Assembly (NCBI RefSeq): GCF_009389715.1
Contig: NC_052400.1
Coordinates: 310,001 to 374,000 of the forward strand
Direction: 5' to 3'
Source: Phoenix dactylifera
Lineage: Eukaryota; Streptophyta; Magnoliopsida; Arecales; Arecaceae
Length of the DNA: 64,000 nucleotides
Shown here: positions 1 through 60,500 of the stretch, piece by piece
Layout of the letters: each line of letters begins with the position of its first letter
Position numbering within the stretch: position 1 is the stretch's first letter
Position numbers and translations under genes: made by a program
The notes under the pieces: model-generated
What the model was told of the DNA's origin: nothing
Database searches by the model: none
The model's input: only the letters and a program-made list of their open reading frames with translations

Positions 1-1588
1 GAAGAAAATTAAGCCAGGAAAAGTAAAGAATTTGAAAGAGATGCGAAAGAAAAGAAAGAATGTGTGAATGAAGAATAAGAGAAAAAAAAACTAGGTGGTC
101 TGCTGATGTTACCAGGAAGGAAGAAAGGACAAAAATGGAGAAGCGAGACAGTAGCAAGAAAAAGAAGAAAAGTGATGAAAATGGATGCAGAGGTCAGAGA
201 AGGGCAAAAAGAAGATACAAGGCTAAAGAGAAGTGATACAAAATCCTCTACACTAAAAAGATTTTATTCTCAATATGCAATATCAAATTAGATGCTTCGG
301 ACTTCCCCATGAATCATGGGCAGGGATGTAGGACAAGGATATGACATGATATGGATAGCCAATACAACAAATCTTGAAAAAAATAAGATAGGACATGTCT
401 AGAATACGCCAACGAATAGATATGTACTTCATATATACATACATATACACACACATACACATACATAGATACGTATGCAAAAGAGCATCTATAACACATA
501 GTAGGCCAAAAATAACATAGTTCATGCTCTATATGATAACATCAACTCTTATAAGCTTATCGTATAGTCATCAATCAAATCCACAAACCCCAGTTCATAC
601 TTCATATTTTAATATTAGTATCATAGACCAAAAAATTGACCATTCACCAGTAGAAAATAAATATCAAAAAGGAAAGAAAGTAGCCTTTCTCTAATTTTTG
701 GAGGTATCGAGAAAGTATCTCAAACATAACCAACAATTATCTAGAGTGTCTTCTTAGTTTTGAAAAATGGAATATTTAACATAAGCATCGGATGCATCCA
801 AGAAGAATCCGGGAACAGCATGCGAGCTGAAGTCTCAACGCTTCCTAAAAATTTCCACATAACCCTCTCTACAAGATAAGAAAAACACTACAGACCACGT
901 TACTTCATTAGACTTAAAAATTACCTACTTTTTACTTATAAAAAGACTTCCAAAATATCATTCTTCCTCTAAATTGGACTCAAAAGAAGAATACACTAAT
1001 ATTTTTGTGAAAAGGATTAGCTTTACTGCCACTTCATATTGTTTAAGCAATTTATTAAAATAGAAAAAACAGAAAAATCTTCAGTTTTCTGTTTTTTTAT
1101 ACACTATCCTCCCCTCTTTCTCTGTGTGAGTGTGGTGTTTGCTTAATGTACATTGAAATATACACGCGTCTACTTCTCTAACCACCAAAGTGGCCCTCTC
1201 TCTCTCTCTCTCTCTCTCTCAAAGAGGCCTTCCCACTTATTTATCTCTTTACTCCATTCATCCATGAAGATGCCTTGCCTCTCTCCCTAACAGATTAGGC
1301 TGGTGCACCTCCGAGATCCCCTTTTTGCCCTTAACTGACCTGGGTCAAATTAAAGGTTTTGGTCTTCTGAAAAACTCAAATATGTGACAAAGCAAATCAT
1401 AGTTAGTATTTGAATAAAGGTAGGTTGCCTTCATAAATTCCCTCAAAAGTTCAAACCAATGTCTAATGGAGAAGATTGTCGGGTCAACATGTCAGCACTC
1501 TTACTAATTACAACCTTCGGCCTGTTAAAAGCAAAACATGCAATATATGTATAAAAAGGTCCTAAAAAGAAGATATGAAGACTGGTAC
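1..1588. other. Left flank: in-window part of the last MRPL46 intron
   Basis: On the minus strand a splice donor (GT at 1588-1587) ends the exon at 1589. The final coding exon of the family was not found in either orientation, so this stretch is probably intron running past the left edge. Bases 1-290 are purine-rich, with many GAAA/AAGA words and no recognisable protein. A (CT)n microsatellite lies at about 1197-1220. Nothing else is recognisable. Confidence 0.6.
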
Positions 1589-4500
1589 CTTAAAGGATGG
1601 AGTATCTGACGAGTCTTCTTTTGGTTCTACAGCCATGTGGGCCATAGGAGCATTGCCAACAAAATACGTATGATGAAGTCCTCCAAGTACAGATCTCAAT
1701 GCTGATTCTGCACACTGAAATTAAGGATTTCACATAGACATCACAAACACAGACTTCTTCAAAAGAAGGGTGTTGAATCACAACCTCAGTCATTCACCAA
1801 CAAGCAAAACTTTTTGAAGATAAATTATAAGGTAGATATATGTAATTTGTAAATGAAAGAACTTGTTAGGGAAATACCAGTCGCAGAGTCTCTTCATTTT
1901 CATATACTTTTTCTGGGAAATGCCAAACAGGTTTCTTGTCAGGAGCTCCATATGTGCTACCATTGAGGAGAAGATAAAGTCTTCTATCTAGTGCTCTCTG
2001 CAATGATCTATAGATAACAGACAGCAAACAATGAAAATAAATAGGGTTGGCAAATGGAAAACGAAAAACTGATAACCAGCTATTTGCATAGCAGTATACG
2101 ACAGATGAATAGAAAAAATCTAAAATATGCTGGCAACATGAGTTAGAACACTCGTAATCCATAAACTGTAGCCATGAAGGGAGAAGGCATGTTCATCATG
2201 CTTTATAATATATACAATTATTATCATGACCAACATATCCCAAGTTCTTTGTACTGGCAGTTATGTCCTTCTTAGCCCCCCAATCCTCTCGATGATTGCA
2301 TCCTTCAATTCCTTTTTTTATTCTTTTTCTTTTAAGGTTAAACCTGCATAATCACAAGCACTTTTGTTGCCCAATTTTCTGTTCATGTAATTTCAATTTT
2401 TGACTAAAGACCTCTATTTAATGTACCCTTCTAGAGTTTTCTTTTTTCATTAAATACAATTGTAAATACTGTCAGATTTTATCAATTACATACAATTTCT
2501 TAACCCCCTCAAATTGTTTCCTTTGATACATAGAGAAACATCATACCGAATCTATATGCACCTTGGCACTTGCTCAACAGCCAGCTCACAATGTAAGCAT
2601 CTGAATAACTGAAGTCCTAAGACTTAGCACTTAGCATTACCTCCAACAGAATATTTAGAAGTTACATACTTCTTCCTTTTTTGCTTTCCAATATACTCTC
2701 CGACGTGGATACCCTATAGCAACTAAACCAACCTTTTAGTAAAGTGATGATCTTCACAAAAAACAAACCATTAGCACAGTTTTTGGTTGAAGGAGAAGCA
2801 GCAATAGAGAGACCGTATCATCTTTACCAATAAATGGTGCACACACGCATGCTAGACCAATCTTTGGAGATAATGTATACATTTCTTTCATAATAGTCAA
2901 GTTATCAACAGTACAACATCAACATTGAGGCCCAACAAAAAAGAACAATATTTTTTATTATGTTTATACAAATTTACTCCCAAAAAGATGTAAATGGGTG
3001 AGAAAATTTAGTAGGGGGGTTTACATGGAAGAAAGCTTATATACCATGTAGAAATCCAGATTTCATGCATGACAATGACAGTTGGAGGGTGAGGTCCATT
3101 TGAGGGGCAAACAATCAGATCAACAGTTGGTTCAGAGATTACACAAAGGACCATTAAAATCTCTTGAATGGGATCAATACAATAATAAAAGAAGATAACA
3201 AGCATGTGGAAGAACGGATGGGAAGGTACCAGATGAGAACAGAGAGAAGGCGAGTGGTCTAAGGACCATACAAGCCCTAACTGTGATGGGTCATAATCCA
3301 TGGATCGTGAGCCAAATATATGGCACAAATACAGCCCAATGCACGGAAATATTTGACTATCCTGATGACCACTAAATACTATATATCTTTGATTTATGAA
3401 CCCATATTATTTTAAAAAAGAAAAAGAGTGCCATCGCACAACCATGAATTCATGTTTTTACCACCCATCAGTTTTCTTCAATCTTATGATATTATGCCTT
3501 GCAAAAAAGAAAGGGAGATAACCATTAATTCAAGCAACACCAGAACACCAGATAAAAAAGACACACCTCCGGTCATTGGTTTTGTCAGCTTCTGTGATTC
3601 GTGGAGCAGGCACATAATCAATTTGGTAGTCACCTTTTCCCCTAGAAAATGATCAATAGTTATACAAAATTGAGTTACAAATCACGTCACAAAGAACAAG
3701 GACATTTAGAACAACAGTACAGTATGTAATTGTGAAATTTAAATATCTAACTTCACATTTTTTTTGATGTATCATGGACATTTTCTTCCCAATTCGCTGT
3801 TAAGATACACCTCCTAGTAGTCAGACAGTTTGTGATAAATAATTTATAGGATGACAGAGAAGCTCGTATGCCCATGGAATGCCGTACCGGCCCGTACCGG
3901 CCGGTACGGGCCGGTACGTACCGGTCCGGTCCTAGACCGGTACCGGAACGGATAAAAAACCGGTATATCCCGATTTTTTATCCGAACCGGCCGGTACGGG
4001 TGCGTACCGGCCGGTTCGGGCCCGTACCGGCCGGTTCGGAGCCCGTACCGGCCGGTACCGGCCTCGTACCGGTGCGAACCGGCCGGTTCGCACCGGAACG
4101 ATTTTTTTTTTTAGAACCACAGCGCCGCGCGCTGTGGTTTTTGAAACCACCGCATACCGGCCGGTACGGTACCGGTACCGGCCGGTACGGACCGGACCGG
4201 ACCGGTACCGTACCGGTCCGGCCGGCCACCGGTACGCCGACCGGTACCGGTACGGCGGACCTTGCGTATGCCAAATATAAAGCATAAGGCTTGTTGCCAA
4301 TGATAAGGATAATACAAAAAAAATCCTCTCCAGTTGGCAATGAAACTAACTCCAGCTGGCTTGTTAAAACAAAAGATTTCTAAGGAGAAGTATATCTTGA
4401 AATTCAGACTGCAGGCTGTTTAGCTAAATGAACTACAAACACTAGGAAAATAAGGCATGTAGATTAAGCCTCTGGTTTTAACTAGAGTGGTTAATTAAAA

Positions 4501-7500
4501 TTTTACCTAACAAATTTTCTTTAAGTAAAAGCCAGTGCAGTGACAATGTTGAATTATTTGAACCTTTAACCATTTAAGTAATGGAGTTAACGATATTCTC
4601 TTTGCATATGCAGTATTAGCAGATTTCTTAAGATTAAGAAATGCATCATATCCTTTATAAAAACTACCCATGATTCCTGAAGGTTTTCTTTCCTGGTCTT
4701 TGAACAGCTTTCTTTCCAAGATATTCTATCCATAAAATGTTCGAATCTGTTTATCTATGCTTACTTAACTTCAGACTAACTAGATTTTATCGATGTCTCT
4801 GATAGTTGAAACCAATATGCATCTGTATATGTTAAGCATGAAAAAGCACGCCGAGGAAAGGGATGTTCCTGCATACTTCTCTTTTCACATACAGTATCTA
4901 ACATAAAATTTTACCAAACAAGGATGCACACATAAGGTGGTAGGAGTAGGTCGTGGCGGTTATCATATGATTCAGAATCTATAAGTCTAGCATAAGATAC
5001 TTTCTAGCATTTCCATATTATTGATGTGAAATTCACTTTAATCCAGTTCTGCATTACTTTATAATTGACTAAAATCTTTAGCCAAGGGAGACTTCCTCTT
5101 TCATTAAAAATCATTTATTATGAATGCATCTGACTCCACAGGTTCTTCAAATCATCCAAAATATTATTAAGATCAATCACAAAAAGCATCTTCATATAAG
5201 AAGACAAAACCAAGCTAAAATGTATTATCCAAAACCTTCCTAAAAAAATGGAAATTCTTTAAGTGGTGTTTTTAACTCTGTCAATCATTCTATGTTTATA
5301 TGATTATATGTTTATTTCAGCAAATCTAATGAGGGAATAATCTTGGAACTGAATATCTCACCTCATGCTGGTCATGCTTTGCTCCAATAACTTTTATATC
5401 CATTGCACCATGAATAGTTTAGCCTTGACTTTTCAGTGCACATCTCATAATCTATTTACAACCTTTCAGTTCATATCAAAAACACTTATTCTTTCGAAGT
5501 CCTTATCACTAAAGTTGCATTTTGGAGCAAAAGGGATTTGCAGGATTTAGAAGCAATTCCCATGTTAAAACAGATGAATTTATTGAATATAAACAAGATG
5601 CCAGGCAAGATATCATGTTAAGTATTTTATGCGTGCAGATACACAATCCAACAAAATTTTATGCTTTGCTTCAAAAAAGTCATCTCCCACCATGATTAAA
5701 ACTGACTTAGATATGTATTTCCATTATTTAAGATAATGGAAGTAGGTAAACCAAATTTTGCATGCATGTTATATAAAAACTTTTGTTACTTCCTTACTAC
5801 TAAATTATTTTATCATGAAATCAGGAACAAAACTAATAATGATCATTCAAGGCAACCAAATAATTACAGCTATGTTTAAACTAAACCAGTTTTGTAGGAA
5901 ATTCATTGATGATTATTCTTGGGTATATTAGGAACTTGACGATGTCAAAGTCCTATTCAAAGGTTTGAACATTTTTATCCAAAGTCACATCTTCTCCAGT
6001 TTTGGAACAATAGACATATTTAGGTTACAACAAGAAAGAGACCAAAATTGAGCACATGAGCCTCCTATATCCATCATACTAGTGGCTTCTCTTTGCACAT
6101 ATGAATATGCACAGCAATATGGCAGAGTCCATCCCTATAATTGCAGATGACTGACTTTTCATTCCAAAATATTCATCATTTTCATATTATCAAGCACATC
6201 AGTAAAGGATGCACCAACCATTTAAGAGGCTTAATGGTTTTTAACCACTTCCTTGTGGCACCATTCTTGTACATGACAACCAAACAAGAAGTTTAAAATA
6301 AAGCATCCTTTTATATGCCAGGTTTTCTGCAATCTTTATTGTGATCGAAGAAATTGGAGAAATCTATCGATAACTTGAAGTTACTAAGAAAATATAATCT
6401 TCCATGTTTTCACTGCTTTGCAGAGAGTATGAAATGTTTTCTCGTAGGTAATGAATTTCAATTTTCAAAACCCTACTAGTCATTTCCTTGGTTGCTTGAG
6501 CTAGGAGTGGTTGCAAGAGTCGACTCCATAGTCAAAGCAAGAAATTGGATCTCTCAGAAAAGTTTAGATTACAAAAGAGGTTAAGAAACCTTAGCATAAC
6601 AACACAACAAACCTTATCATGTAGAAAAATCGTAATTTGGTTGCTACATTATCAAGGCATACATGATATAGAGATTAGGAACCACAATAATAGGACTAGA
6701 TGCAATTTTGGTAGAATATGATAAAAAAATGAAAAACACTTGAATACAGAGAGAACCAGAAGCTTCAGAAAGTGGATGAGGAAGGATGAAAATGATTTTG
6801 GAGCAAGTGTGATGCCGTACAAAAGATAGCACATTCTAGCTGCTGGTTGATGTTAACTTCAGAGCAGAACTGCAATATATGACTCTGAAGATAGAGGAAA
6901 AATTGGGACTTATTCCATCATGGTTATGTCTAACAAAGAGAGAATATTACATACTCATGAATCAAGAACAATAAGACTTATGTAGAAACAATGACAAAAG
7001 AGATTGAAAGGTTTTACAATTTTCTGGCAAAATATATTTGGCGCTTTCCATTTACAGCTTTAGACAGGAATCACACTCTGTAGATTTATACAGGAAGCTT
7101 ATGTGAAGTAACATCGATAAAACAACCCATCCAAATGGTAAGGCTTGCTTATGTTTGTTTATGACAATCAATGGAATCAATGGATAGATTTCAAACCCAA
7201 AAAAATCAAATCTATGCAACAACCTATGGATTATACATGGAAAATTCATGTACAATACTTGATATACATGTATGACACATAATCCAGAAAGCAAATCATA
7301 CCACAATTCAGAACTATTACTTACATTTGTCTAAAAATATATATAAAAGATTAGTAGTATACCAGCTTTAAAATATATGCAGGGTCTGCCCATCATAGTT
7401 TTCTATAATCACAGAATATGACTGACTTTGTTTTGCTATAAAATAGACATTATATTATAATAATATAACATTATAAGAAGCTTGAGTTGTTGAGAGGACA

Positions 7501-8943
7501 CATGAGCAAAAATTATGTGCACGTTCGGAAGGATGTAATTAGAATTAACTACTTCTGAGGAAGCTTAGGAGCAACCAAGAAGCAATAGAAAAGTTCACGA
7601 CATTTAAGTTTTCAAGATGAGGGGATGATGGCTTGAAAATGTAGAGTAATGTCAAGAAGGATGAAACTAGAAATCAGGATATAGGAAGCTTAGTAGGACC
7701 AAAATGCATTAACTGGAGTTGAATTTTAAGGATGTTTTGTATGCTTCATCCAACTATCCTCGCAATATCATTTTACCTACAAGAAACACGATAATACATC
7801 GGAGAGACAAAATGTAATCATTTAGTTGCAGCTAGAATTTCAATACATGCAGCAGACATGGTACGTCCATCCACATCACATCCCTTCTACCGCCACCTTT
7901 ATTCAATTAAACTGCAGTTTGCAAACTATGCAGCCCAGCAATATAAAGAACATAACATGGATAGACATGTGAGGCATCCAAACACCCTCTTCAGGTCTTC
8001 TATGGATATTGAGCATAATTCAGTGATAGCCCATTTAAAAGAGGTAACAAATTGAGATAATAGGTTGATGATTAGGAGGGAACAATAGACAACCAATGAT
8101 AGAAACCACACAAGAAAATAGGAGACTTGGCACCCGCTCCATTTAGGTAGCATAGACTTTATGTTGGTGATGATTCTTACTCGTCATATCAGCTGCAAAC
8201 AATTCATAGGAAAAAGAAGAAAAGGAAATGCCAGCACCATAACTTAAAATCTAATGTTGACGTATGAATGCATGTGTCAAGCATTCCACTTCAAAATCTA
8301 AAAACTATGCTTCTGATGTTTCTCCTTCACCTCCAAAAGATTCACAAAGCTAACATGCATATAACAAACCTTTAACCTGATTTCAGCTAGCTAATAGAAA
8401 TTATAAAGGAAGGAATATAATATCATTATTGAAGTTGAAAGAGAACCAAAAGTCCCAGAAAGATTAAAAAACTTTACCTGGCATCGCCCCTTCCCAAGAC
8501 CTCATCAGGGTACCTTCGCCGGTATTGCTGCCTCCACCGAAACCTACATAAATTATTTCACCATCATCCTATCCATCCCGTTCAAGCTCATCAGAATTTA
8601 TTAAAAAGAAGTAAAAAAAAATGCTATCAAGAAAACGGCGTTCCGCAAATAGATGCTATCAGTTACATTAGAGTTCAATCTTTTCCGATTAATATAAACT
8701 TCATCACCAATCTTGGGGCTCTTATTGCGGTATCAAGCAAGAAGAAGAAGTAAAAGGAGGAAATGAGGAGGGATTGAAATCTCACGAGAATTCTTGGAAG
8801 GCGTACACGACGGGATCGATCTTGGGGATGACGACAGGAAGGCGCTCGAAGAGGACAGTGGCGATGATCTTGTCGGAGCTCGACGAGGAGAACCCTCGCG
8901 ATCGCAGAGTTCGGAGGAGCAGCGAAGCGGCGGCTCGCTGCAT
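1589..8943 (-). CDS. MRPL46: Mitochondrial large-subunit ribosomal protein L46 (bL46m/MRPL46), 3' end missing
   Basis: This is a component of the mitochondrial large ribosomal subunit; plant homologues resemble Arabidopsis At1g14620. The minus-strand exons are 8943-8786, 8543-8478, 3641-3567, 2007-1878 and 1714-1589. They join in frame to 185 codons and every junction is GT-AG. The start is the ATG at 8943. The N-terminus (MQRAAASLL, then an Arg/Ser-rich run ending SSSSSDK) looks like a mitochondrial presequence. Family signatures follow in order: VLFERLPVVIPKIDPVVYAF, FRWRQQYRRRYPDE, GDYQIDYVPAPRITEAD, SLQRALDRRLYLLL, KPVWHFPEKVYENE and HTYFVGNAPMAHMA. Homologues are about 230-240 residues long, so roughly the last 50 residues (one exon) lie beyond the left edge. 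Intron 2 is 4.8 kb and holds a transposon. The family assignment is from memory of homologues and is strong because every exon matches in order. Confidence 0.93.
3873..4264. mobile_element. CCGGTAC-rich non-autonomous hAT-like element, copy 1
   Basis: This 392-bp element lies in intron 2 of MRPL46. It is flanked by a perfect 8-bp direct repeat CGTATGCC (3865-3872 and 4265-4272). Its ends are CATGG and, read inward from the right, CAAGGTCCGCC. Both are followed by CCGTACCGG, so the ends are inverted repeats. The interior is dominated by the self-complementary words CCGGTAC and GGCCGG, and is far more GC-rich than the surrounding intron. A central 11-bp perfect stem lies at 4115-4125/4129-4139. 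No transposase is present. An 8-bp target duplication with CA...TG ends fits the hAT superfamily. Long open frames through the element on both strands are compositional artefacts. Confidence 0.75.
4273..8477. other. Bulk of MRPL46 intron 2
   Basis: This is AT-rich intronic sequence between the exon ending at 8478 and the hAT-like insertion. Short open frames on both strands have biased composition and match no family I recognise. I see no RNA gene or intact mobile element. Confidence 0.6.
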
Positions 8944-9111
8944 CTCCCTCTCCTTTCCCCCCCTCTCCCGATTTCCGCTCGGTTTCGACGCGAACCCTCC
9001 TTGAGCCCCCCATAAACCCGGGGACACAGCGGGGGCGTATCGATATCGGTGCGTTCGACCCTGAAGTCAAAACTCACCCGATCGAAGAATTACACTCGCA
9101 TTCCTTCATCC

Positions 9112-16574: not shown

Positions 16575-19500
16575 ATGAACGAGTCGGCGTACCGGGTGGA
16601 GACCGCGCCCCGCCTGGCTCAATGGAGGATCGATACCCTCTCCTCCTGCACCTACCGCAAATCCGATCCCTTCAAGATGGGCATCTGGAATTGGTTCCTA
16701 CTCTCTCTCATCGCATCCCCTGATAATTGCTTTCATATTTCGACGGATTTCGTCTCGAAAACAAGGAAAAGTTCCGATTTTTTTTGGTAGTTTTTGTTTG
16801 GACTTCCAGCAAATTCTCGTCTTTCGGAGAAGTGGTGAAGAAAGTTCGGATTTTGGAAGTACCAAATTGATTTTTTTTCCATTATTAGATCAATAATTGG
16901 AAAAGCTGCTCCTTTCTGTCACTGTTTTTTTTTATATGGGAATCCTATCTTATTGAGTTTCGGAATCTTGCTGTTTCTCGGGAATTGAGCTTTGGTTGTT
17001 TTCTTCCCGTTAAGAAGTATCCTGGAAAGTATCCAAAAGATTTGATCTTGGAAGCACCAGACATGTTCGCATATTTTTCTTTACAGAACACAGAAAAAGC
17101 TTGCTTTTTTGGATGTTTCCTTTGTTTTATCTTCATCTATTTCTTTTTCCTTTTCTGGAGTTAGAACCTAATTATTATGATAAAATTAAAGGAATTAATC
17201 ATTCGCTTGTTGTTTGTTTGATGCTGGGAATTGTGGAAAGGTATTTGACGGTAGAGAGACATAAGCAGCTATACGTGAAGCTATACCCAGAAGTGTCGAG
17301 TCTAACAAGGGAGCAGCCGCCAATCGCTTCCTTCATCATCAAACTCATCTCCTCCTCCTCTCCTAATCGCAGGACCCTCGTCCACCCAGGTCCCCCTCGT
17401 CCTTTCTCCGTTTCTCTTTCCTTTTTTCTTTTCTCTCATCGAAAAGTATCCATCTATGTGTCGCATAGCTATGTCAGCAAGGCGTTTATGTAGCCTTGAA
17501 GAAAACGAGGCATAAATAATAGCCACTGCTCATCTTTTGCTACCTTGCATCAGAATAGCAGGAAGCTCTCAACTGTTTGATTGCTAGTGCTCTCTCTTGA
17601 ATGTTTACAAGAATCGCCATAGGTCAAAGTTTGAGATTATTTAGAATCTTTGGTTGTGACATGCTGAATATCTAATTCCTGTCATTTTTTTAGTGCAGGA
17701 ATATGCGACAAGCAGCTAAAGAACAACGATGACTTTGTATGGGCAATTGATACACTCCTTACTGGCAGATTCATTATTGATGTCGAGTTCCTCGATCTAA
17801 AGATTATACCCACATCAGTAAGCAATTCTATCTCCATATCTTTCATGTAATCTTTATCTTGTTCATTTGGAGACAGGTTTTTGGATCATAAGTCATGTTA
17901 TCTTGTTTTGCTTTATGCCTCTGTATTTAAGCCCTCGTTTTAAACATCATGACAAGAATTCTCAAATCTCCTCTTCCTGTTTCCATCTATAAGGTCTTCC
18001 ATATATATGAATCAAATATCAAGGTCCTAACTGCTCCATGTTTCCACGTGCCATCGTCTAAAATATGATAGATTTCGAGAACACTAATATTTATGTGAAT
18101 AATACGTAAATAGTATCTTGATACTTTGAAATCAAAGGTAACTAGCAAGTTAGGAGATTTTATCCAATCAACACCCGCCTGTCAACAATTCACCTAATAA
18201 AGAAGAACTGTCTCAAGCTTGCTCTTGACCATAGAGTTGGTTGTACCTTCCTTCTAATTAATTGATTTGTTTTTTTTTTTGGGCCAAAAAGGATGTCAAT
18301 ATCAGGATTTAGGGGAAATTTACCTACCCCAGCAGCTGATCCTCGGATGTGACTATTCAAATTGCCTAAGTTCAAAAGATAGCAGTACCATAATATCAGT
18401 TTTGTTATGGTTGCTGATGGGAGGAAGTGCAGTAACTCAATATCCTTTATAAATTTTCTACCATCTTTATCTAATTATTTTAGATTTTTGGAGAAAGTGG
18501 AGTAACTTAACATCCTCCATAAATTTTCTACCATCTTTATCTAATTATTTTAGTAGCATTAATTTCTATTCTGCTCATGCTTGTCTTCTGTGCTTCTTCT
18601 TTTTTTTTTTTCTTTTTTTTTTCTGCTAAGATTCTGTGCCTCTTTCAAAACTATCATTAAATATTTCTTCCCTTCGAAGAGCCTTCTTGTTGCAAACATG
18701 ATTAAGGACCACACATTCTCAATGGTTGTTAATCTTGACAGATATTCCTATGCTTTGGTGGTAAAACTGGGGTATGAGTCCAAGTCTTTTAAGACAGTTG
18801 AAATGGACACAGGGACTGGTCAATCCTTATGACTTCAAGAATCTCACTTGACCATTTAGTAAATCCTCCTGTCACCCATTGATCCAGGCTAGGATACTCT
18901 TTAGCAGGCATAACACAATAGTTGGGCTCTATAAGTCCAGTAATTCCACATTCCACTCTTTTGTTGGAGTTATTTAGTCATCATTCAAAACCGCACCTCA
19001 TGCTCTGAGGTCCCATGGCATATTCCACCCTTACCATCTGTATTCCTCCTCACTGCCTCACTAAGAAGCCACGACTTCTATGCTTCTCTCCCTCTCTCTC
19101 TCTCTCTCTCCACGGAAGCAAAATTTCAGTTATAATCATCAAATCTGATCCTTGTTCTGAAACACAGGGTGGAGAACCTTCATCTATCTGGACCGGCTAC
19201 CACGTCGAGAAACACTCAATTGCTACGGCCCTCACATCCCTTGGCCGAATGTTATCAGAGGGCATCCACACAGACATCACGATCAATGCTACTGATGGCA
19301 GCATCGGTGCGCATCGTGCCATTCTAGCTGCAAGATCCCCCGTCTTCCGCAGCATGTTCTCCCACAACCTCAAGGAGAAAGAGCTTTCTACTGTGAACAT
19401 CTCTGACATGTCCTTTGAGGCATGCCAGGCCTTCCTCAACTACATCTATGGCAATTTTCAGGCTGATGAGTTCCTCAATCACCGTCTTGCTCTCCTTCGT

Positions 19501-19770
19501 GCTGCAGATAAGTATGACATTTCTGACCTCAAGGAGGCCTGTCATGAGAGCCTCACAGAAGACATCGATGCTAAGAATGTGCTCGAAAGGCTCCAGACTG
19601 CCTACCTCTACCGTTTGCCAAAGCTGAAGAGTAGTTGCATGAGGTACTTGGTGAACTTTGGAAAGATTTATGACATCCGTGATGATTTCAATGTGTTTCT
19701 CCAGAGTGCAGACAGGGAACTCATAGCTGAAATCTTTCAAGAGATTCTTGCTGCATGGAAAGGTTTCTGA
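16575..19770 (+). CDS. BTB/POZ domain protein, At1g21780-like (predicted CUL3 adaptor)
   Basis: The exons are 16575-16693, 17241-17389, 17699-17817 and 19168-19770. They join in frame to 329 residues, close to the 326 of Arabidopsis At1g21780, and all introns are GT-AG. The N-terminal part (residues 1-130: ETAPRLAQWRIDTLSS, KSDPFKMGIWNWYL, REQPPIASFIIKL, GRFIIDVEFLDLKI) is the MATH-like region of this family. Residues about 160-260 form the BTB/POZ fold (TDITINATDG, GAHRAILAARSPVFRSMF, ACQAFLNYIYG), and a BACK-like helical tail ends in ILAAWKGF. Proteins of this family are thought to dimerise through BTB and bring substrates to CUL3 E3 ubiquitin ligases; the substrate is unknown. ATG 16575 is the first in-frame Met. 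The stop is at 19768-19770. The exon 1/2 junction splits the Trp of NWYL. Confidence 0.93.
18422..18553 (+). repeat. 70-bp tandem duplication in intron 3 of the BTB gene
   Basis: Two copies (about 18422-18483 and 18491-18553) share a near-identical core that includes TAAATTTTCTACCATCTTTA. They differ at a few positions near the start of the unit. This is a local intronic tandem duplication with no coding role. Confidence 0.85.
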
Positions 19771-47400: not shown

Positions 47401-48396
47401 AAATATCCATATAAATTTTTATTTATTTTAAATTTTAAACACTAGAAAAGAAATACATTCCTCAAAGAAGAATAAACAAATGGATTTTTTTTTGGAGATG
47501 AACAAATGGATTTTTTTTTTCAGAATAAACAAATGGAAGGACCATATGAAAGTATATCTCCCCTACGAGAAGCCTGTTTAGTGGTGTCGTCCACTGTTTT
47601 TTTTGCTTCCCCAAAAAACCACTAATTTGCTGGGTGTTTGGACTCTAAAAACATGGTTATCGCAGACTGTATTAAATAATTGTATGAAACTTCAATTACC
47701 CACGGTGTGAACTCTGAGATGAGGTCATCCTTGCCTCTCATCTAGACCAATTCTTTCAAGTCTCTTTCATCCCAAATCCAAAAGCATTAACATTGATTAA
47801 CTAATTCACATCATTCCATACAAATAAAGGATGTATCTATTCAAAATTCAACACATAAACAAAAAACAACATACTGTAAAGTGTAAACCCTTTAAATAAA
47901 CCAAGAAATTGGTCATCAAAACACCTAAACTCACTTGAACGCCACAAACTAATCCAAGTTGCAGAAAAGAATAATATAAAATGAATCCCAGAACCTTACT
48001 TGACAGAACACCAGATCTCATTCCAAAGTTCCTCAGAATCAATTTAAGAAACAGAACTCGACGCAAAAAGACAGACCCTCTCTCTCTCTCTCTTGCACTC
48101 CGCGGCTAAAATCTAAATGCATTGGAACAACTATTAATTATTTTACGTTTACCCCCTCAGTCCTCACCGGCAAATAATAAATATTTTTATGCCAAAATCC
48201 GAAATTATTATTTTCCCTTCGTACTCTCGTCTTCTCCACTTCGCTGTTCTCATTCTCCTCAGTCTCCCCCCCACCCCTCCCAGATCTCTTAATCTACGCG
48301 CCCCCCCGGTCCGGCGCACGATAGCCTGAGCCACCGCTAAACCCTACTCTCCGCTGCCCGCCTCCGCCGCGATCGGAGCCATCGTCGCCACCGCCG
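44408..48396. other. Intergenic region up to VARICOSE
   Basis: Two minus-strand open frames (44460-44861, 45013-45228) and a 49-codon ATG frame (44839-44988, minus; MQLTKAAEAKKNYMKAIKVF at its start) match nothing I know and may be remnants. AAAGAT repeats lie at about 46208-46245. A poly(T) micro-insertion cluster is at 47471-47537. From about 48060 the sequence is CT- and C-rich, probably promoter and 5' leader of VARICOSE. Confidence 0.45.
47471..47537 (-). repeat. Nested poly(T) micro-insertions in repeated AATAAACAAATGGA
   Basis: AATAAACAAATGGA occurs at 47471-47484 and 47524-47537, with a shorter AACAAATGGA at 47501-47510. The copies are separated by T9 GGAGATG and by T10 CAG. Either two poly(A)-only retroinsertions hit the same site, or one unit was duplicated in tandem. 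Confidence 0.55.
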
Positions 48397-51300
48397 ATGG
48401 CCTCCCCTGCCGGAAACCCCAACCCCTCCGGCCCCTTCGAGCTCCACAAGCTCTTCAAGCCCCCCAACCCCAGTCCTAACGCTAACCCTAGCTCCCCTTC
48501 TCCCATCCCCCCGCCCTCCTCCTACGGCGCGGCCCCGCCGTCGGCGTACCCCTCGCCGCCCACCGGCGCTGCCCCGCCGTCGGCGTACCCCTCGCCGCCC
48601 ACCGGCGCCTCCACGCCGTCGGCGTACCCCTCGCCGCCTCCCGGCGCCTTCTCCTACCCCCCCACCACCCCGCCGTTCCATCACCATCCCTTCCTCCATT
48701 ACCCCCACGAGCCTCTCCACCGCCCCATTGTCTCCTACCCCGCTGCCCCTCCCCACTTCCCCAGCCCTAACTCAAGCCCTAATCCTAGCCCTAACCCTAG
48801 CCCCGGCGCGAACCCCGGCGCCCGCCTGATGGCGCTTCTGGGCAACGCCGCCCCCTCCCACCTCGAATCCGCGGCCTCGATGCCTCCTGCATCCTCCATG
48901 CCGTCGGAATTCTCCCCCCCGGTGAACCCGCCGATCCTCCATGCCGTCCCTTCCGCGCCGCCGGCGACCCTGGCCGTGGTGGGCCAGCCGGCACCGGCGA
49001 GGCTGCCGAGCAGCAAGATGCCGAGAGGAAGGCACCTGGGGGGCGGGGACCGGGCGGTGTACGATGTCGACTCGCGGCTGCCGGGGGAGTCCCAGCCGCC
49101 CCAGCTCGAGGTCACTCCGATCACCAAGTACACGTCGGATCCTGGGCTTGTTTTGGGTCGCCAGATCGCCGTCAACCGAACGTACATCTGCTATGGGCTC
49201 AAGCTTGGCGCGATCCGCGTGCTCAACATCAACACAGCGCTAAGATCGCTTCTCCGGGGGCACACTCAGGTTTGATCTCAGAGAAATTTCTGAACTTCTG
49301 CTATCTTCCTTCTCGGTGGATGATTCATAGGTTGATTTGATCTCCAAGTGTGTACGGTCCCTGTTATTACCGGATTTAGATGGTAGTGTAATCGATATGA
49401 TTTGGGTATTTGAAAGTAAGGCCAAACTAAAATTTTGGCAGGGAGGGTGAAATATGGTACCGAGGCAGTTTTAACTGGCTTTCGAGGTTTGTTGTTTTGT
49501 AGCTGTTCAGATATTGTGAAAAGTCTATTCACTCTTTAATTTGGTTTGGTCATGGTGCTTGTTGATTTGTGAGTGCTTATATGTTGTTGTGCTTGATACC
49601 ATCCTTGTTTTTGTGAGAAAGAAATAACTGTAAGTTTTTGTGAGAAAGCAATAATCATATCTATGACTGCTGAAGAGAACAAAATTTGGAGCTGCTTACC
49701 ATGTTTTACTTGAAGTCTGTTCAGGTCATCTGTCTTGTATATAAAGTGAGTCAAGTTGGAAGTTGTCATAATTGTGTAATTAATGCAAAATACTAGTTGA
49801 ATAACTGAAAGACGATATCTTAACTGTAATGATTGAAACTCGGAGAGGAAAAAATTTCTAATAGATCTATGTGGATTTGCTGGAGCTGTTCATGTATTTG
49901 GAAGCATGTCCTGCTTGGTGTAATCTAGGGTGTTCTATTGCATTATATGGCAATAGGGATCATATAAGTTGGGTAGTTGAGAGAATGATCATACGATATT
50001 GTGATTTTGCTGTGAATGATTTGAAGCTGGGAGAACGTTGGTCGAGCTTTGCAATTTCCACCTCTCGAGGATGCTATGTGAACAGCCTGGGCATTTGCAG
50101 ATGTAGAAATGCTTGGCGAATGAAAAATAATAAAATTGAGCCCAAATAGTTGGGATAGGGCCTAATGGCTATGTTTACGCTTGTTGATATCGCTATGATT
50201 TAGCTATTCATAGTTATTATGATCATTATCCTGCTGATACGCATCGACTGATATGGGAAAGTTAGTATCCTGCTGATATGTGTTGGCTGATATACTTTGA
50301 ACTATTTGGGCAGCTTCTAAAGCACTCTATATAGTGGGCGGGTGATTCAACTTTGTTATCAAGGAAAAAACAGACACACACACACACAGAGAGAGAGAAA
50401 GAGACCATGATAGGCATGGAGAGTATTTTTGGAGATGACAGAACCATAGCAGGGTGTTGAGTTTTTTTTTTTTTGTGGAGAATGATAGACATACAAACCT
50501 ATTCCTTTGTCAACTGTGTTTAGTTCATGCAATAGTTATAATCATGTGTGTGCATGTGTGTGTTTTTTCTTTTTTATTTGATGAATTTGTATCACCAGAC
50601 AATTGGAAGAAGAGCTGCACTGTTTCTTAGGTGTGGGAATCAGATCTTCTTGTCTGATAATGTATATTTTTGGCACCCAACTTTTGAGTGTATGGCAGCT
50701 TGAATTCCATATGGTGATATGTGTAAAATTTTTCATATTTATGCATCCTAGGATTTTTCCCAATAATGATCCATAGCAGTTTTCATAATTATACTTAATC
50801 TTTATTTTCCTGCTTAATTTGCATCAAAAGAGCAATACAATCTCCATGTGTAACACCGCCTTTGTGTGTAAACTTTTTTTTTTTACTCATCAGCTGCTAT
50901 TAACTCTTATATATTATTATAATATTGTTTGCATGGATGGATATTCCAAGTCTGCTGACATGTGTTAACTTATTCTTAAGTGATTGCTTATTTTGCAACT
51001 TCCTTTTTTTCCCTCTTAATGGAAGAAGTTAATGCTGCCTATACTACCTCATTTATGTGGAGTGAAAACTGAATTCATGCATAAGATGTTGTCAAGTCAT
51101 TAGGTATTACTTATGGCATTTTATATGCTTTCTTCCCTCTTACACTCTAGTTAGAGGGACAATCTGCAGAGCTGCTTATGTGAAGGTCTTTATGATTGGC
51201 ATTTTTGAACTCACTGGATTTGCATTTTCTCCAGAGGGTTACGGACATGGCTTTCTTTGCTGAAGATGTCCACTTTCTTGCCAGGTATTCTTCCACTTGT

Positions 51301-54300
51301 GTTCTATCAGTTTCTTCCGTTATCTTTCATCCACAATTTATTGGCAGTTTGCTTATTCTATGTTTTGCAGTGCGAGTGTAGATGGGAGGGTTTTTGTATG
51401 GAAGATTGATGAAGGACCTGATGAGGACAATAAGCCACAAATAACAGGAAAAATCATAATTGCCATTCAGATTGTAGGAGATGGAGAATCATATCATCCA
51501 CGAATTTGTTGGCACTCTCACAAACAAGTAAAACCATCATTTATAGTAGCGCCATCTCATGGATACTTTTTTAAACAGCTTTATTTGGATAAATGTACTC
51601 AATCACTATATTTTTCATGGTCTATCTAGCTTGGAAAGATGCATCTGCTATGTATTATTCTGCGTAGATGATATTTCTGCAGTGTTATATGTGAATCTCA
51701 TACTTCTGGTCTTCAATAACTGTTCTGCAGGAAATTTTATTTGTCGGAAATGGAAATCGTGTGCTAAAAATTGACATAACAAAAGTGGGAAGAGGAAAAG
51801 AATTTTCTGCAGAGGAACCTCTTAGATGCCCAATTGAGAAGCTGATTGATGGAGTGCATTTTGTGGGCAGACATGATGGGGAAGTGACAGATTTGTCAAT
51901 ATCTCAATGGATGACAACTCGTTTAGCTTCAGCATCAAAAGATGGCACGGTTTGTACTTATGCCTGAAAATCTTCTTGATAATTGTAAGGTTGATTTTCT
52001 AACATAAGGGGAATAGAAAGAATCATGATTGTGATATATAGAAGAACTTGCTGCTGTTACTTTCCTCTGGTTTTTTGTAAAGCTTGGCAGTGCATAATTA
52101 CCTGGAAAAAATGCATGTTCCTTGATGTGGATTCTCAAAATTTTTGCCAACTTTAGATGATCTACTTTACTCTCCAAATGGTTATGCCAACGTATGCTGT
52201 ACCGGCCTAAATCGGGCGGTACGGAGCATATCATATCGTACCGGTTAGATATCGGTAGCTGCTACAGGTGGCGTACTGACGCTTGGTTCGTCAAAAAAAT
52301 ATCCGGTATGGGTAGCGTACTGACACTCGGTTCGTCAAAAAAATTTCATACTGTATCGTATTGATACTGTGCTAGTGTGGCACCGGTACGGAGTCCGGTA
52401 CCGAGATGGCGAACCTTGGGTCATGCCATTGTTTTTTTGGCTGGCATGAAAAGTTGCTTTTTTCATCCTTTTTTTTATATGTTTATCTTACATGCGCCAA
52501 AGCTATCCATAGCTATATTATTATGGCTACGTATTTGGTTGCCTGCTATATTCTGTCTAGCTAAGATTTTCAGCCTTTTCATGTTGGTGCTTAAACAACA
52601 TTTTGAAACCACATGGTGTTTTGGTACGATCATGCTGAGTATCTATTAGTATTAGCTATTATACTAATATTTGAGCAATGCAAATTCCGATGGATAATGC
52701 AATTGTATGATTTTGCAAACTTCATCTGAAATTCTTTTCATATTGATGTTAAACTTTAGATGCTTTGGATATCACATATGAACAATTCAATAATTGTTTG
52801 ATGTAGCTCAGATTCTGTTGGTTTATGTGGATGTATGATTTCACAAACTTTTATCTGAGATTTTTGCACATTGCTGTTAAAATTTAGATGGCTTGGACAT
52901 TACATCTCAGTAAATTACTGCTATGCTCCTTACAATGTTTATATGACCAGAATTGTCATGTCTCATGTATTGTAGAATTATCTGCTTTCGAACAGTTGTA
53001 TCCCCACAATTGTCAGTCTGTCCTGTTACTCTACTGTTAATTGGATGCGAAGGTATAAATATAATAGAGAACAACTGATCTTGTTATATGACTTTTTCCT
53101 TATCATGTGCTGGCACATTATTGTTGTTGCCCTACTTAATGTAAGGATTGGAGTATCACATGCTGGTGGTGTGCCAATCTAGCACCGGCATGTATGCATG
53201 GTGTCTGTGCCATGCCATGTGGAACCATTCTAGTGCTTGACATACTTTGGCATTTTAGCATGTCAAGTACTGGCAGGCAACCGGCACAATTCTGCTGTCG
53301 TATGCTGGCAAGTTGTTGTTAGAGTATATATCTCATCATGCACTGCTGACCTGGCTCTTAAATCCATGTTTTGGTGCATGATTTTTTTCTTTGGCTTTTA
53401 ATGGCAAGATGAATGAGATGCATATTGATTGCGAATGCTTGAAGTTTCATTTATGCAAATATTTGCATGTGCTTATGATGATACAATTGCGGTTTTCTTC
53501 ATTTAATAGCAACGGTAGCAAGACAGGCAAATATTGATCCATTGTTCCTTTACTTGGGATCAATTCCTTTTGTCCGTATCTTTTTAAACTTGTAAAGGTT
53601 AACCTAGTTTTTGATGTTCAACTAGATTTGCCATTGTTTATGTTGTTTACAGATGATATCTTTTTAGCTGGTAATAGGAGGCTATAGTGGATGCTAATGG
53701 AATTTATGGAGGGAAATTGTGGATCATGAGAGTTTTAAATCAATAGAACTCAAACAAAGATTATTGAATTCAACATCAGTGAAAATATAAATGAAAATGA
53801 GGCCTTGGTTGAAATTGATGGCTAAGAGATACTACAGTGTGATCTTATTTTTTACAAGGAATCCACTATATAGATGAATGTGGAGATAGATGATGAAGAT
53901 ATATCTTATAGATGAAAGGCCAGTCGAATAGAGGTGCTGGATGTATAGTGTATAATTATACCCTCTAAGACTTGGATCAGAAGGACAACTAAGCTTGCAA
54001 TATTTTATGTTTTACATATTGGGCATGGGCTAAACACATGAGATGGATATACTAGAAAAATGAATGATGGGATGTGTCAAATATCTTGTGAAGTCAGGAA
54101 GAAAGGGTGAGGAGTACAAAGGAAGTATTTCCCACTGCTTGAAGATAAATCAATGGAGAAATGATTGAGATGGTTTGGTGTTCGGTACAATGTTTTGAGG
54201 AATTGTTGTGGTGGGAGGAACTCATATATGTTGAAGGGGTCTAGAAATGAGGAGGAGACCAACTTGGTAACACGAATAAACTTCTCAGAGAGGATGTTGG

Positions 54301-54530
54301 TTAGTTTGCAATGATGATGCAGTAGTGTGAATGATTGGCAAAGAAGATTCGTATATCTTAACAAAAAAAAAATAACATTGGGGTAGAGTATGATGGTTAT
54401 GACACATCTTATTTTCTTATGTCCAACTTGTCGCACAAACCTTTTATTAGCCTGCAAATGCCCTACTATATCAAGGTTGTTGGAAGAATTCTACGGACCT
54501 GGTTAATCTAGTTAAGTCAGTATATCCTCT

Positions 54531-54564
<34 letters not shown>

Positions 54565-57500
54565 GTATTTATATATGTATATGTATACATGTATGTATAT
54601 ATATGTGCATATGTGTATATATAACAATATATATATATATATGTATATGTATATGTATGAATGTATATGTATATGTATCTATGGATGTATGTATGTATCT
54701 ATGTATGTATGTATGATTGCATAGTATGCCTTAGCAGCTCAAACTTAATAGTGTTGCAGATTACCTATGTTACTATTGTTGCTACATGATATTGTTGCTC
54801 AACCATTATGTAGCTGTCCCTTGTACTAATCAGCATTTGCTGTTGGTTCCCATCACAAGCCTAAAGTCATGTTTTGAAATTTGGCTAGTTTTGAGTTGAG
54901 TTACCAAATTCCACTTTTGGCGTCGGTCAACTGACCAATTACATATTCATGTTTCACATGAGAACTGTCCTTCAGTTAATATTCTGTATTCATCCGAAAG
55001 AATTTAATTATATGCCTTGTTAGTATCCCCTTTATTTCTATTAAGTCAAAATAGGAAAGAGAAGAATGAAACATGTTCTAGTAAAGCTTGAAAAATTCGA
55101 AAGAGTCTAGTCCGATATCAGGTACCAAGTGAAGGAGAGGAAACAAAAGAGAAACAGAGGAAGGAACAGAAGGATTTAAGACGAAGGGTTAGGTAGCACT
55201 GGAAATTCCGACATGACTACGAGGTTCCAGCATGTAAATGGTTTCACTCCTAGGTCTATATTAACCGCATCTTTTGTTATATCAATTATCAAATACACCA
55301 TTTTGTCTCATGCATGCTATAAACAATGTGCTCCATGTCTGATTTTCAAATTGTAATATTTAAGTCAATTTTCTTTTCTGGATTTCCCTTTTTTTCCTTT
55401 TAAAATGCCAAGATTTTTCTTTTAAGTTGTACACGAGCAGTGGTGCAAGTGTTTTGAATGGTCTTCGTTATCAGTTAGGTCATTAGAATTTTAAGAGTAG
55501 TACTCTGCAAGTGTAGCTTTTAGGTGGAAGTAGATTTTATTTAATTTTACCTGATGATTGATAACTTTATGTGGCCTTTATTAAGAAATTATACTACCAA
55601 ACTTTTTTGATGCACCTTTAAATTGTTTATAGTTTAATCATGATATGAACATATCAAAAATGTAGGTCCTTCAACCCCTGGAAGGCCACTGGATTTTGAC
55701 ACAGGGTCAGCAGTACGCATAATAGAAAAGCACAAGTAGGGGGAAACAAGGCTTTAGGATCCCTTGGGATTTATCCGATAAGAATTCTTGTGTGAACTGC
55801 TGGAAAATTTGTTGGGATGTAGATGAAGACATTGGACTAAGAAGCAACAGAGCTACGACTAAATACACAGCTGGTTCCGGATTTTCATTCTTGTACATTG
55901 GGACAGTTATGCTATGGCTGCAAAGCAACCTTTTGGTCATGTACTGATTATAATTGATGACTTTGTTAGGTCAATCCTAGTTGGAGGATATCATTGAATT
56001 GATATCTGTTGTTCTCGATAGTTTTTGTACTGAAACTTGATTTGATTTTGTTGGATGTTTGCTATTATATTTAGGACAATCCAAAGCTCGACTTTTAGAT
56101 GGTGGTGCCTGATTTACGCTGCCAGGAGTAATGGTAGCTATTTTAGCTTGTTTTTACCCCCACAGGGGTGAGAAGATCCATTGTGTTTCAGGGCTTCATC
56201 ATCCACACCCTTTCTTTTCTTCGAGGAGTTTCTATGCAGTTCTGTTTTGTATGATATAACATTTTGCCTTATCACAATGGTTGAGATCTCTTCCTATCAC
56301 CTTTTGAGCATTGACTGCTTCAATGTTTTAGTGGGAAAATATGTAGGACATAGCTTTGCTATTTTTTGAGGCATTTATGTTCATCAAGTCTTACTTAAAG
56401 ATTTTTTTGTTGCTATATATTGGTTTCCTTTTTAATCTCCCCCAATACTTCAGGTTAAGATCTGGGAAGATCGTAAAGCAGTTCCCCTTACAACTTTAAG
56501 GCCGCATGATGGTCAAGCTGTCAATTCAGTCATATTCTTGACATCGCCTCAAAGACCTGATCACATTAATCTCATCACAGCGGTATGTGTCCTTTGACTT
56601 CATTTAAGATGCCTCCAAAATAAACAAGATATTGTTTGATATTCATGTTTTTGGATTTTCTGTTACTATTTCAGATTTATTAGCTTAAAGAAACTGTAGC
56701 AATTTGCTGTAGAATTATCATGTTTTATGCTATTTCTTTTGATGCAATTAGTAGTTCATTGCAGTTGCAGTTTCTTATTACAGCAGACACATCTCTAATT
56801 GGTTGTCATTTGTCTCAGGGTCCTCTGAATAGAGAAGTGAAACTATGGGCATCTGCTGGTGATGAAGGTTGGCTGTTGCCGGGTGATTCTGAAGCATGGC
56901 AATGCACTCAGACTTTGAACTTGAGAAGTTCTTCAGAACCTCGGCTTGAGGAGGCATTTTTTAACCAAGTTGTGGTTTTGCCTCGAGCAAGCCTTATAAT
57001 ACTTGCAAATGCTAAAAAGAATGCTATATATGCAATTCATGTAGACTATGGTCCATATCCAGCAGCTACATGCATGGACTATATAGCAGACTTTACTGTT
57101 GCAATGCCTATTTTGAGTCTTACTGGAACGAATGACTGCCTTCCTGATGGGGAACAGGTGGTTCAAGTTTACTGTGTCCAGACACAGGCTATTCAGCAGT
57201 ATGCATTGGATTTATCGCAATGTTTGCCTCCGCCGAGTGATAATGTTGCATTGGGGAGGGATCCTTGTGTCTCACGTGTTTTTGACACACCTAGTTTGGA
57301 GGGAGTAGCAGTTTCAGAACCATCCCGTGGACCTATGGTTAGTGATCTTCCTGTAGGAAGTGCTTCACCCAAATGCCCAACTGATAGCAGCATTGAGGAT
57401 CCATCTGTAACTTCATATCCTGTAACCTCAATAGCTTCAGAGGTTAACAGTATTCATGAACTGTCTTCATCGAATGTTGATGTGAAGCCCAGTGCTCCTC

Positions 57501-60500
57501 CACTTCCAAGTTCAGATGCTGATGCTGCAAATGTTGTATCTTCTCCTGTTCCCTTGAATTTAGACCTTGCAGGAAGACTACCTGCCTTGAAAAGCCCTCC
57601 AAAAGGTTTTGAGCAGGTACCAACACTCGGTGACCGTGATGTTGACCCATCAAATGTTGATTTTTCAGTTGATAGGAAAGTGGACACTGTTATCACAAGT
57701 ACACCTGATGTTCCTTCCATGAATGAGAACTTAGGAAAGGATGATTCTAAAGCTGGTCAAAATGATATTTCTATGGTGCCAAATCCTCGTTTTATGTTTA
57801 AGCTGGGTGGCAACACAACACACCTAGTAACTCCATCTGAAATCTTATCAGGTGCTATATCTTCATCTGACAGCAGCAATGTCAATCAAGGTCCAAAAGA
57901 TGAGGAAGTAAGGGTTCCAGATGCGCTTGCTAATAATAAATTGGAGAATGTAGAGGGGGAAGTTAAAGTTACGGGCGAGAGTAGATCAAGCCAGAACGGG
58001 GAATTTGATTCTCAGAAAGAGGCTCAAGTTGCTCCTGCAGAGAGCAAGGAGAAATCCTTCCAAATTTCAGAACCAAACATTGAGATGGCCAGTGAATGTT
58101 CGGCAGTAACTGAAACTTGCAATGTGGATGAATCTCAACCTGTTGAAGACATAGCTGTTGCCGAGTCATTGGAACAGCGTCCAAGTACTGGCGAGGAAGA
58201 AATGCAAAACAGCACAAAAGATATGCCTGAAAAGGTGGCAGAATCTGTTGGAGCTGCAGCACCTGCTGCCAAAGGGAAGAAATCAAAGGGAAAGCAGTCT
58301 CAAGCTTCTGGATTATCATCTCCTTCCTTGAGTCCTTTTAACTCCACTGATTCTTTATATGAACCAGGGAGCAGTACAGGCACTCCTGCTGATGCTGTGT
58401 TTCCTCAAGTTCTGGCAATGCAGGATATGCTGAACCAGGTGATTTTGACCAGCTATTTGAAGTTGTAGAATACATGATTATTTCTGAAATTTCTTAGCAC
58501 TTGGTTATGAATACTGAACAACTCTATTTACATTGTGCATTATGAAAAGTATTGTTTGGTCAACTACCAAAAAGAAATGCATAGTTTGGTTAAGAAAATC
58601 ATCATTCCTATGGAATATATAGTGGACTCATGAAGTTCTTTTCTTTTTTTTCCTTGAAGTGTATTACTTCTGCTATCAGGTTTGTTAACATCTGTCATTT
58701 AATAAATCAATCACTTATTGGCATGTCTAGATCATTGTTTGTGCCTTGCAATACTTTGTTTTGAAAAATTGGATATGGTTTTGTCAAACCTCAGTTGATT
58801 AATTGCCAGTCATCATGCTCACTGTTCAAATTTTGTTTCAAGCATTTTCAGAAAATGTTATGTTTTTTAGCCTTTTTAAATTCAATGTAGATTTTGTGCT
58901 AGCCATTTTTGAACAGAGAAAATGGTTCTGCATTGTCTGTTGAGAATTGCAGTATTTATGCATTTTATACAATGTGCTAAGGGGGGAAGTATGTATTCAT
59001 AAGATGTTTTTTGCTAGATTTTCTCCATTTTTAAAATTCTGATATGAATTAGGTGGCACTTTCATAATTGATACTCACTCTATCATTCATTTGTTTGCTA
59101 TTTGTGCCTTTTGTGATACTAGCAACATGCGTGTGCAAATGCTCGTTTAGTTAGTAATTAATAGAACAAGAATTTATTGGAATGATTTTATCGCATCGAC
59201 TAAAAATAAATATCTATAACATGGGCTAGGAAAATTTGATATAAAAGTCATATGAATGGTTTTGCAGATTGTATGATCTCAATTAACTTGGAGAACCATC
59301 AACTTCCAGCTAGAAGAGTCAAATTTGATTGCGAATTGGAGAGGGCTATCTCATCTTAGATTTAAGGTTTCTTAGAGCTTATGGGTTTTGGAATAGCAAT
59401 GATGTTTGATTTTAAATCCAAGAGTCTGATATGCTTGTTGGATTAATTATTTAGGCCTACATGGTCCAGTGTATATATGATTTGGATGAACTCATTTCAA
59501 ATTGACGTAGCCCAAAATGTTCTCAAATCCAATTCAATTAATTGATTAAATCCTCAATTAGTTATATGATTATGGTTGATCTAAGTGACATGGTCTTGGT
59601 GATATAGTTGGGATATGAATGAGATAGGTAGGCATGGAGTGATTAAGATGGGGTTTAGTTTTGCCAATTGGTTGAGCTAAATCTAAGACCGGCACATGCT
59701 AAAATCATCCAATGGTCAAACCTTTGTATGATAACTAGAATAACCTTCCTCCTTGTGACCGACAATTGCTTTGCCTTCAAAACAAATTTATTTTATTTTT
59801 CCATGTAAATTTTGCTAAGAACTGATGGGACTATCTTAGACGATCTTTTAGTTCCCAAAATTGGGAGTGTATGATATGTTGCATGATAGTTAGCTCAATT
59901 TTTTGTAATAAGACAATCACGACCAACGATTAATAACACAATCACCATGAGCCTCCCAGAACCAGGTGGAGATTTCAAGAATAACAGTTGGGATTCATCA
60001 TATGCACTAGAGAAAAATATCTGGGTGGAAGGTTGAGGAATTCTAGATGCACTTCACTATTGCCCATTTTCGTGACTCACATACCTATTCTAATACTAAA
60101 CTAAAAACTTCCAAGTCATCCAGTCATCTCTCTCCACGTCTTCATATGCTAAAATAGGTTTTTCTTTTTTTGAAAGCAACCTGGTTTGCTGACAATTTCC
60201 ACTAGTCTTTGAATAAGATGGTTGAACTGGAAATAAACTCACCCAACTCTTTTCGCATATTAAATAAATATTTTTAAGATATTTTACTTGCACCTTTTTT
60301 TTGTTTTTTGTTTGGGGGGGGGGTTGCAAGACACATGCACCTCGTGTAACTAAGGGGTGTCATGCACACCAAGGATGTCATGAGAATGGATACATGTAGC
60401 ATATGTTGGGATATGTTGCAACAGATGTACTTGTTGGTGTCTGAGAGAAGAGCTGGCTCTACCATTCATGCGAGATCTGAGGATGAGAAGGATAAGGGTC

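Follow-up and report, generated by a model that had tools for sequence, protein, structure and literature searches.

The 64,000-nucleotide stretch of Phoenix dactylifera DNA studied here (the window) carries, at positions 3865 to 4272, a block rich in CCGGTAC and GTACCGG words. We propose that this block is, with high confidence, a miniature inverted-repeat transposable element (MITE) of a BED/DUF659-type hAT DNA transposon, that it originated by loss of the transposase gene, and that its CCGGTAC words are candidate binding sites for the transposase. Elements of this kind are already known. The family is new only as far as the present searches reach, and its ends are unusually word dense.

The element measures 392 bp (window positions 3873 to 4264) and lies between perfect 8-bp repeats, CGTATGCC, at 3865 to 3872 and 4265 to 4272, exactly as the original prediction had placed them. 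Its GC content is 66% compared to 33% in the 500 bp on either side, in line with the marked excess that had been claimed. Twenty-five CCGGTAC/GTACCGG words are found inside the element and 30 in the whole window, and four of the five words outside it fall in a second, diverged copy (copy 2). The terminal inverted repeats (CATGGAATGCCGTACCGG versus CAAGGTCCGCCGTACCGG, alike at 14 of 18 positions) are short and imperfect and start with CA. Inverted CA...TG ends had indeed been predicted and are present, but the CAAGGTYCGCCGT end proved to be the 3' one, and the copies read start with CATGGAATGCCGT or a close variant.

The extreme self-complementarity ascribed to this copy was evident by two measures. 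Folded as DNA, the element reaches -171.9 kcal/mol, compared to -101.8 kcal/mol (standard deviation, 4.5) for 100 dinucleotide shuffles (z score, -15.7). Moreover, 79% of its bases lie within 10-mers whose reverse complement is likewise present in the element. By the same 10-mer measure, the 40-copy consensus reached 81%, its shuffles (n = 300) averaged 9% (maximum, 26%), and 392-bp stretches from the rest of the window averaged 3% (maximum, 38%). The arrays are also CpG dense, with an observed/expected ratio of 1.5 versus 0.34 in the flanks. Hyper-decay of CpG was not seen in 40 copies, where transitions affected 1.3% of CpG sites versus 0.8% of A/T, 1.6% of CHG and 2.2% of other G/C sites.

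Family members were analyzed in the 773-Mb genome assembly (2391 contigs) through two sets of places. Set 1 comprised the 40 best scored of 1834 candidate places for the window element, the window copy among them, with 90 to 100% identity over most of the query. Set 2 comprised 40 places outside set 1, picked by their 5' end only among the exact 5'-end matches listed (at least 100). A perfect 8-bp duplication flanked 35 of the 40 set 1 copies; three others had a duplication matching at 7 of 8 positions, one had a 7-bp duplication, and one had none. At the family 3' end of the set 2 places, the duplication was perfect in 32 of 40, matched at 7 of 8 positions in two and was absent in six, one of which (L051) is the mirrored end inside the foldback element L052 described below. 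When flanks were swapped between copies, perfect matches occurred in 0 of 1560 pairings in set 1 and in 2 of 1122 in set 2, and both of the latter would be accounted for by L072 and L073, one insertion in a duplicated segment sharing one site. Shared termini and 8-bp duplications, on which the original prediction had made its classification depend, were thus both found among the genome copies. Thirty-two of the 34 end-matched set 2 elements are 217 to 440 bp long, the others measuring 1589 and 1715 bp, and the family shows the characters of MITEs, namely short length (<600 bp), high copy number, terminal inverted repeats and duplications.

The duplications also revealed a preferred target. Of the 67 perfect ones (66 distinct), 47 have T as their second base (P = 1.6e-10), 42 have A as their seventh (P = 2e-7), and 62 have at least one of the two. 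Few begin with T (2 of 67) or end with A (3 of 67). The motif, approximately nTTnnAAn, is symmetric and includes the hAT pattern nTnnnnAn. An empty site was recovered by comparing the joined flanks of 74 copies with the fetched loci. In a single case, the junction was spanned by a different locus: L038 is inserted in a repeat, and a 78%-identical relative of this repeat in L058 lacks the element and has one copy of the target ATCAAAAC.

These data bear on the possibility that the block is a locally expanded, immobile CCGGTAC satellite or microsatellite. The block is tandem-like, and Tandem Repeats Finder detected arrays of period 5 to 21 inside it. However, the 16-bp 5' end, with at most one mismatch, had 653 genome matches compared to 3 for a reversed control pattern. 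These hundreds of ends are dispersed over the genome and do not form a local array, the copies read have fixed ends and 8-bp duplications, and a full-length transposon shares the 3' end and the word arrays with them. We regard a satellite as hardly conceivable.

Longer relatives were present in the same genome. An intermediate of 1715 bp (L077) has the ends of the miniature and is flanked by a duplication matching at 7 of 8 positions. It contains part of a BED finger, which exceeded the Pfam cut-off for zf-BED (7.1e-6), and a coding tail also present in the full-length copy. All 17 of its CCGGTAC words fall within 185 bp of the 5' end or 110 bp of the 3' end. A genome search with the BED fragment returned 917 candidates, the best 150 of which were scored; all 150 matched, and in at least 20 of these 150 the match lay without a stop within a 614-amino-acid open frame. 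The odd palindromic block is hereby linked to a hAT family that possesses these open transposase frames and hundreds of miniature-type ends.

One full-length element, at C9:8554178-8558707, is 4530 bp long and flanked by the perfect duplication GTACAGGT. Its 614-amino-acid frame contains zf-BED (1.3e-4) and DUF659 (1.5e-55) domains, a downstream frame contains Dimer_Tnp_hAT (4.5e-12), and the dimerisation region gave a weak PDB sequence match to Hermes transposase chains (E value, 0.0083). The element has 18 CCGGTAC words, 8 in the first ~125 bp and 10 in the last ~126 bp, and none across the ~4.3 kb between. A full-length hAT element with the termini of the miniature had been sought, and in this one the 3' end is identical over 18 bp, but the tip of the 5' end is slightly different: the end, CAAGAAAAGCCGTACCGG..., equals the consensus over positions 9 to 45 and differs from the miniature at positions 3, 5 and 8. 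Judged by sequence, the relation of the MITE to the full-length element is clear at both ends (83% and 88% identity). A second full-length copy, on C657, is flanked by the perfect duplication ACCAAAAC and agrees in architecture and type of ends, and of a third, on C14, the fetched pieces covered the 3' end only. The longer elements have AACCACAGC/GCTGTGGTT hairpins in their 5' leader that resemble the GC-rich hairpin of the MITE. The full-length 5' leader (L089:101-620) is made up of further hairpins in a row (AACCACGCGC.., GAAGTGGCC..GGCCACTTC), with poly-T/A runs between them.

Duplications of 8 bp are by themselves common to several superfamilies and not unique to hAT, and the block might accordingly be a MITE of another superfamily with 8- to 9-bp duplications (Mutator-like, P or Merlin). 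Against this stand the hAT-like target motif and the BED, DUF659 and Dimer_Tnp_hAT domains of the transposase encoded between such ends, and we consider another superfamily very improbable, transposases of the Mutator, P or Merlin type not having been searched for. The hAT classification of the original prediction is upheld by the duplications, the target motif and the transposase domains taken together. We take the family to be real and well defined, non-autonomous and of the hAT type, with full-length relatives in the genome, and probably recent.

Because the words of the full-length element cluster solely at its two ends, we interpret the palindrome patchwork as two hAT subterminal arrays joined after gene loss. 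An internal deletion would have taken out the transposase gene and left the two arrays adjacent, and the transposase of full-length relatives would excise the MITE and insert it elsewhere. By analogy with AAACGG in maize Ac and AAGT in Hermes, CCGGTAC would be a repeated subterminal site, and the words are probably bound by the BED finger of the transposase. The extreme palindromicity could then be a by-product of a near-palindromic word present in many copies and in both orientations, and the word arrays may have been expanded or deleted through repeat-driven rearrangement.

Several observations weigh against this interpretation. Of the full-length copies, the two read at the 5' end start with CAAGAAAA and CAAGGAAA and not with CATGGAAT, and L077, which does start with CATGGAAT, is broken; the 5' tip expected of a full-length element matching this MITE's own subfamily is CATGGAATGCC. 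The consensus of the best-matching subfamily has 26 words versus 18 in the full-length element, and a simple deletion is therefore not the whole story. Indeed, since the number of words also ranges from 9 to 26 across set 2, the arrays must in addition have grown or shrunk, a change illustrated by the unequal bodies of the duplicated insertion L072 and L073 described below. Furthermore, L015 in set 1 has no duplication, 6 of the 40 set 2 places lack one even at the level of 7 of 8 positions, and the low divergence of set 1 copies from their own consensus (0.3 to 5% of aligned bases) is a selected value because the copies were picked by similarity to the window copy.

It is also conceivable that the block is a hAT MITE whose arrays are structural and not bound, their hairpins favoring internal copying, the formation of inverted dimers or small-RNA production. 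The strong folding would fit this explanation, as would the inverted dimers and foldbacks within the family and the pair L072 and L073. These two loci lie ~1.4 Mb apart on C2 with flanks 99.4% identical over 5.2 kb, and they harbor the same insertion with bodies of 286 and 217 bp and several internal differences; either the bodies change faster than the flanks, or the pair represents unmerged haplotypes. The restriction of the words to the two ends of the full-length element and the presence of other hairpins in its 5' leader are, however, the pattern expected of binding sites, and we consider purely structural arrays unlikely. With its dense and countable candidate binding site, the family makes the effect of subterminal repeat number on MITE success testable with copies having 9 to 26 words.

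Among the 150 BED matches (the best 150 of 917), eight pairs start at most 2.5 kb apart, of which seven are divergent, one is convergent and none is tandem. The pair at C13:661112-669632 (L096, L097 and L098) belongs to an inverted-dimer unit of 8521 bp that has outer 3' termini on both sides, one exact and one with 2 mismatches in 18, a perfect duplication, GTTTTAGG, and two divergent 614-amino-acid transposase frames. In its center, the 5' leader is repeated in inverted orientation with 91% identity, the 5' tips being absent; ~1.3 kb of the unit and its flanks were read. At C5:5013239-5015442 (L101), the central junction is like that of C13, with indels, and the outer ends lie outside the pieces fetched. 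The C51 pair (L095, L099 and L100) has outer 3' ends, no duplication and a different center. Finally, L052 (C1:5447537-5453187) is the converse, a 1589-bp foldback in which a mirrored 5' end is combined with no more than the terminal 12 bp of the 3' end; it is flanked by a perfect duplication, GGTACCAT.

These dimer and foldback units could have moved as wholes or could have arisen in place by faulty gap repair that keeps the duplication. For the C13/C5 type, we lean toward movement as a whole because a similar junction is present at two loci. To our knowledge, a hAT element requires a left end together with a right end. A speculative extension, to which we give fairly low credence, is that the family accepts any pair of CCGGTAC-rich ends, two 3' ends included, and that MITE bodies, which would consist of hardly anything but words bound by transposase, are selected for word number. 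If this were true, transposing C13-type units with two 3' ends would break the one-left-one-right rule of hAT ends.

Copy 2 had been placed in the same family as the window element. Its ends and its 7-of-8 duplication are family-like, but it is more diverged than had been implied. With 49% GC, 4 CCGGTAC words and 0% by the 10-mer measure, it falls outside the extreme self-complementarity. Copy 2 is most likely a member of an older or sister subfamily, that is, a probable relative. The probable third copy predicted at 14735 found no support: it is a lone end-like stretch, and no duplication beside a second end was present within 12 kb downstream. Three 8-mers in these 12 kb match its left flank with one mismatch, and none of them adjoins a family end. 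The coordinates of the features are given in the table.

Features of the MITE and of its diverged relative in the window
Feature	Position in window	Strand	Basis
Left target-site duplication CGTATGCC	3865..3872	.	Sequence and family-wide test
Non-autonomous hAT MITE (very probable), 392 bp, 5' end CATGGAATGCCGTACCGG, 3' end CCGGTACGGCGGACCTTG	3873..4264	+	Same 3' end as full-length hAT L089/L090 and almost the same 5' end
CCGGTAC/GTACCGG word array on the 5' subterminal side, akin to the full-length element's 5' end	3873..4098	+	Consensus 6-130 83% identical to 6-130 of the 4530-bp element
GC-rich hairpin AACCACAGCGC-CGC-GCGCTGTGGTT	4115..4139	+	Folding
3' subterminal array and 3' terminal inverted repeat	4155..4264	+	Consensus 282-397 versus the terminal 116 bp of the 4530-bp element, 88% identity
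Right target-site duplication CGTATGCC	4265..4272	.	Sequence
Copy 2, left duplication GGTTATGC	52180..52187	.	Sequence
Copy 2, diverged relative, 231 bp, CAACGTATGCTGTACCGG...CCGAGATGGCGAACCTTG	52188..52418	+	Each end with 4 mismatches in 18 versus the family ends, in correct orientation
Copy 2, right duplication GGTCATGC, 7 of 8	52419..52426	.	Sequence

Regarding the surroundings, short open stretches around copy 1 (window 1565-9066, minus strand) resemble what we take to be exons of mitochondrial ribosomal protein mL46, and the copy is presumably intronic if this reading holds. Long frames flanking copy 2 (window 48325-58468, plus strand) resemble what we assume to be an EDC4/VARICOSE-type gene. 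A Pfam profile search of six window frames gave no match at an E value of 0.01 in five: the three mL46-like pieces around copy 1 and the two EDC4/VARICOSE-like frames around copy 2. A BTB/POZ-domain gene lies at window 19009-19770 (Pfam BTB, 7.4e-27). Elsewhere in the genome, a second fragment of a BED-type hAT gene, more distantly related (45 to 47% identical), is located directly downstream of a MITE insertion (L075:502-868).

An earlier description of the family in palms was not found in literature searches judged by their listings, and DPTEdb, a database devoted to the transposable elements of dioecious plants (PMC4865326), might hold one. The papers listed by a search with the sequence words were all unrelated by title. 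In its general design, the family is best compared to well-studied hAT systems. According to the portion of PMC3260210 available, the maize Ac/Ds elements (Ds1, Ds2 and Ds-del) are, like the MITE, short and non-autonomous, with 8-bp duplications, short terminal inverted repeats and subterminal repeats, and the AAACGG subterminal hexamers of Ac bind transposase. The same text derives some Ds classes from internal deletion, as we propose for the MITE. The AAACGG hexamer itself is absent from the MITE consensus and from the window copy, and it occurs twice in the 4530-bp element, at two internal positions (2161 and 3260). The ends read here also look unlike the 11-bp terminal inverted repeat of Ac. 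Unlike in Ac/Ds, the words fill most of the MITE (25 in 392 bp), and the partner transposase has a DUF659 domain.

The BED, DUF659 and Dimer_Tnp_hAT domains of the full-length partner are the same set as in the transposases described by Pfam, the comparison having been made with Pfam models only and with no named plant family. Mar of Drosophila (PMC3517528, seen in part) is likewise a hAT MITE family, but an animal one, and is likened here by description only. In the house fly element Hermes, as far as the excerpt of PMC10368747 goes, AAGT subterminal repeats are bound by the BED finger and form a quasi-palindrome, and Hermes resembles the family in its imperfect terminal inverted repeats (17 bp in Hermes) and its nTnnnnAn target. 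In contrast to the GC-rich CCGGTAC words of the family, the AAGT repeats need AT-rich neighbors according to the same excerpt, and the similarity between the proteins is distant only.
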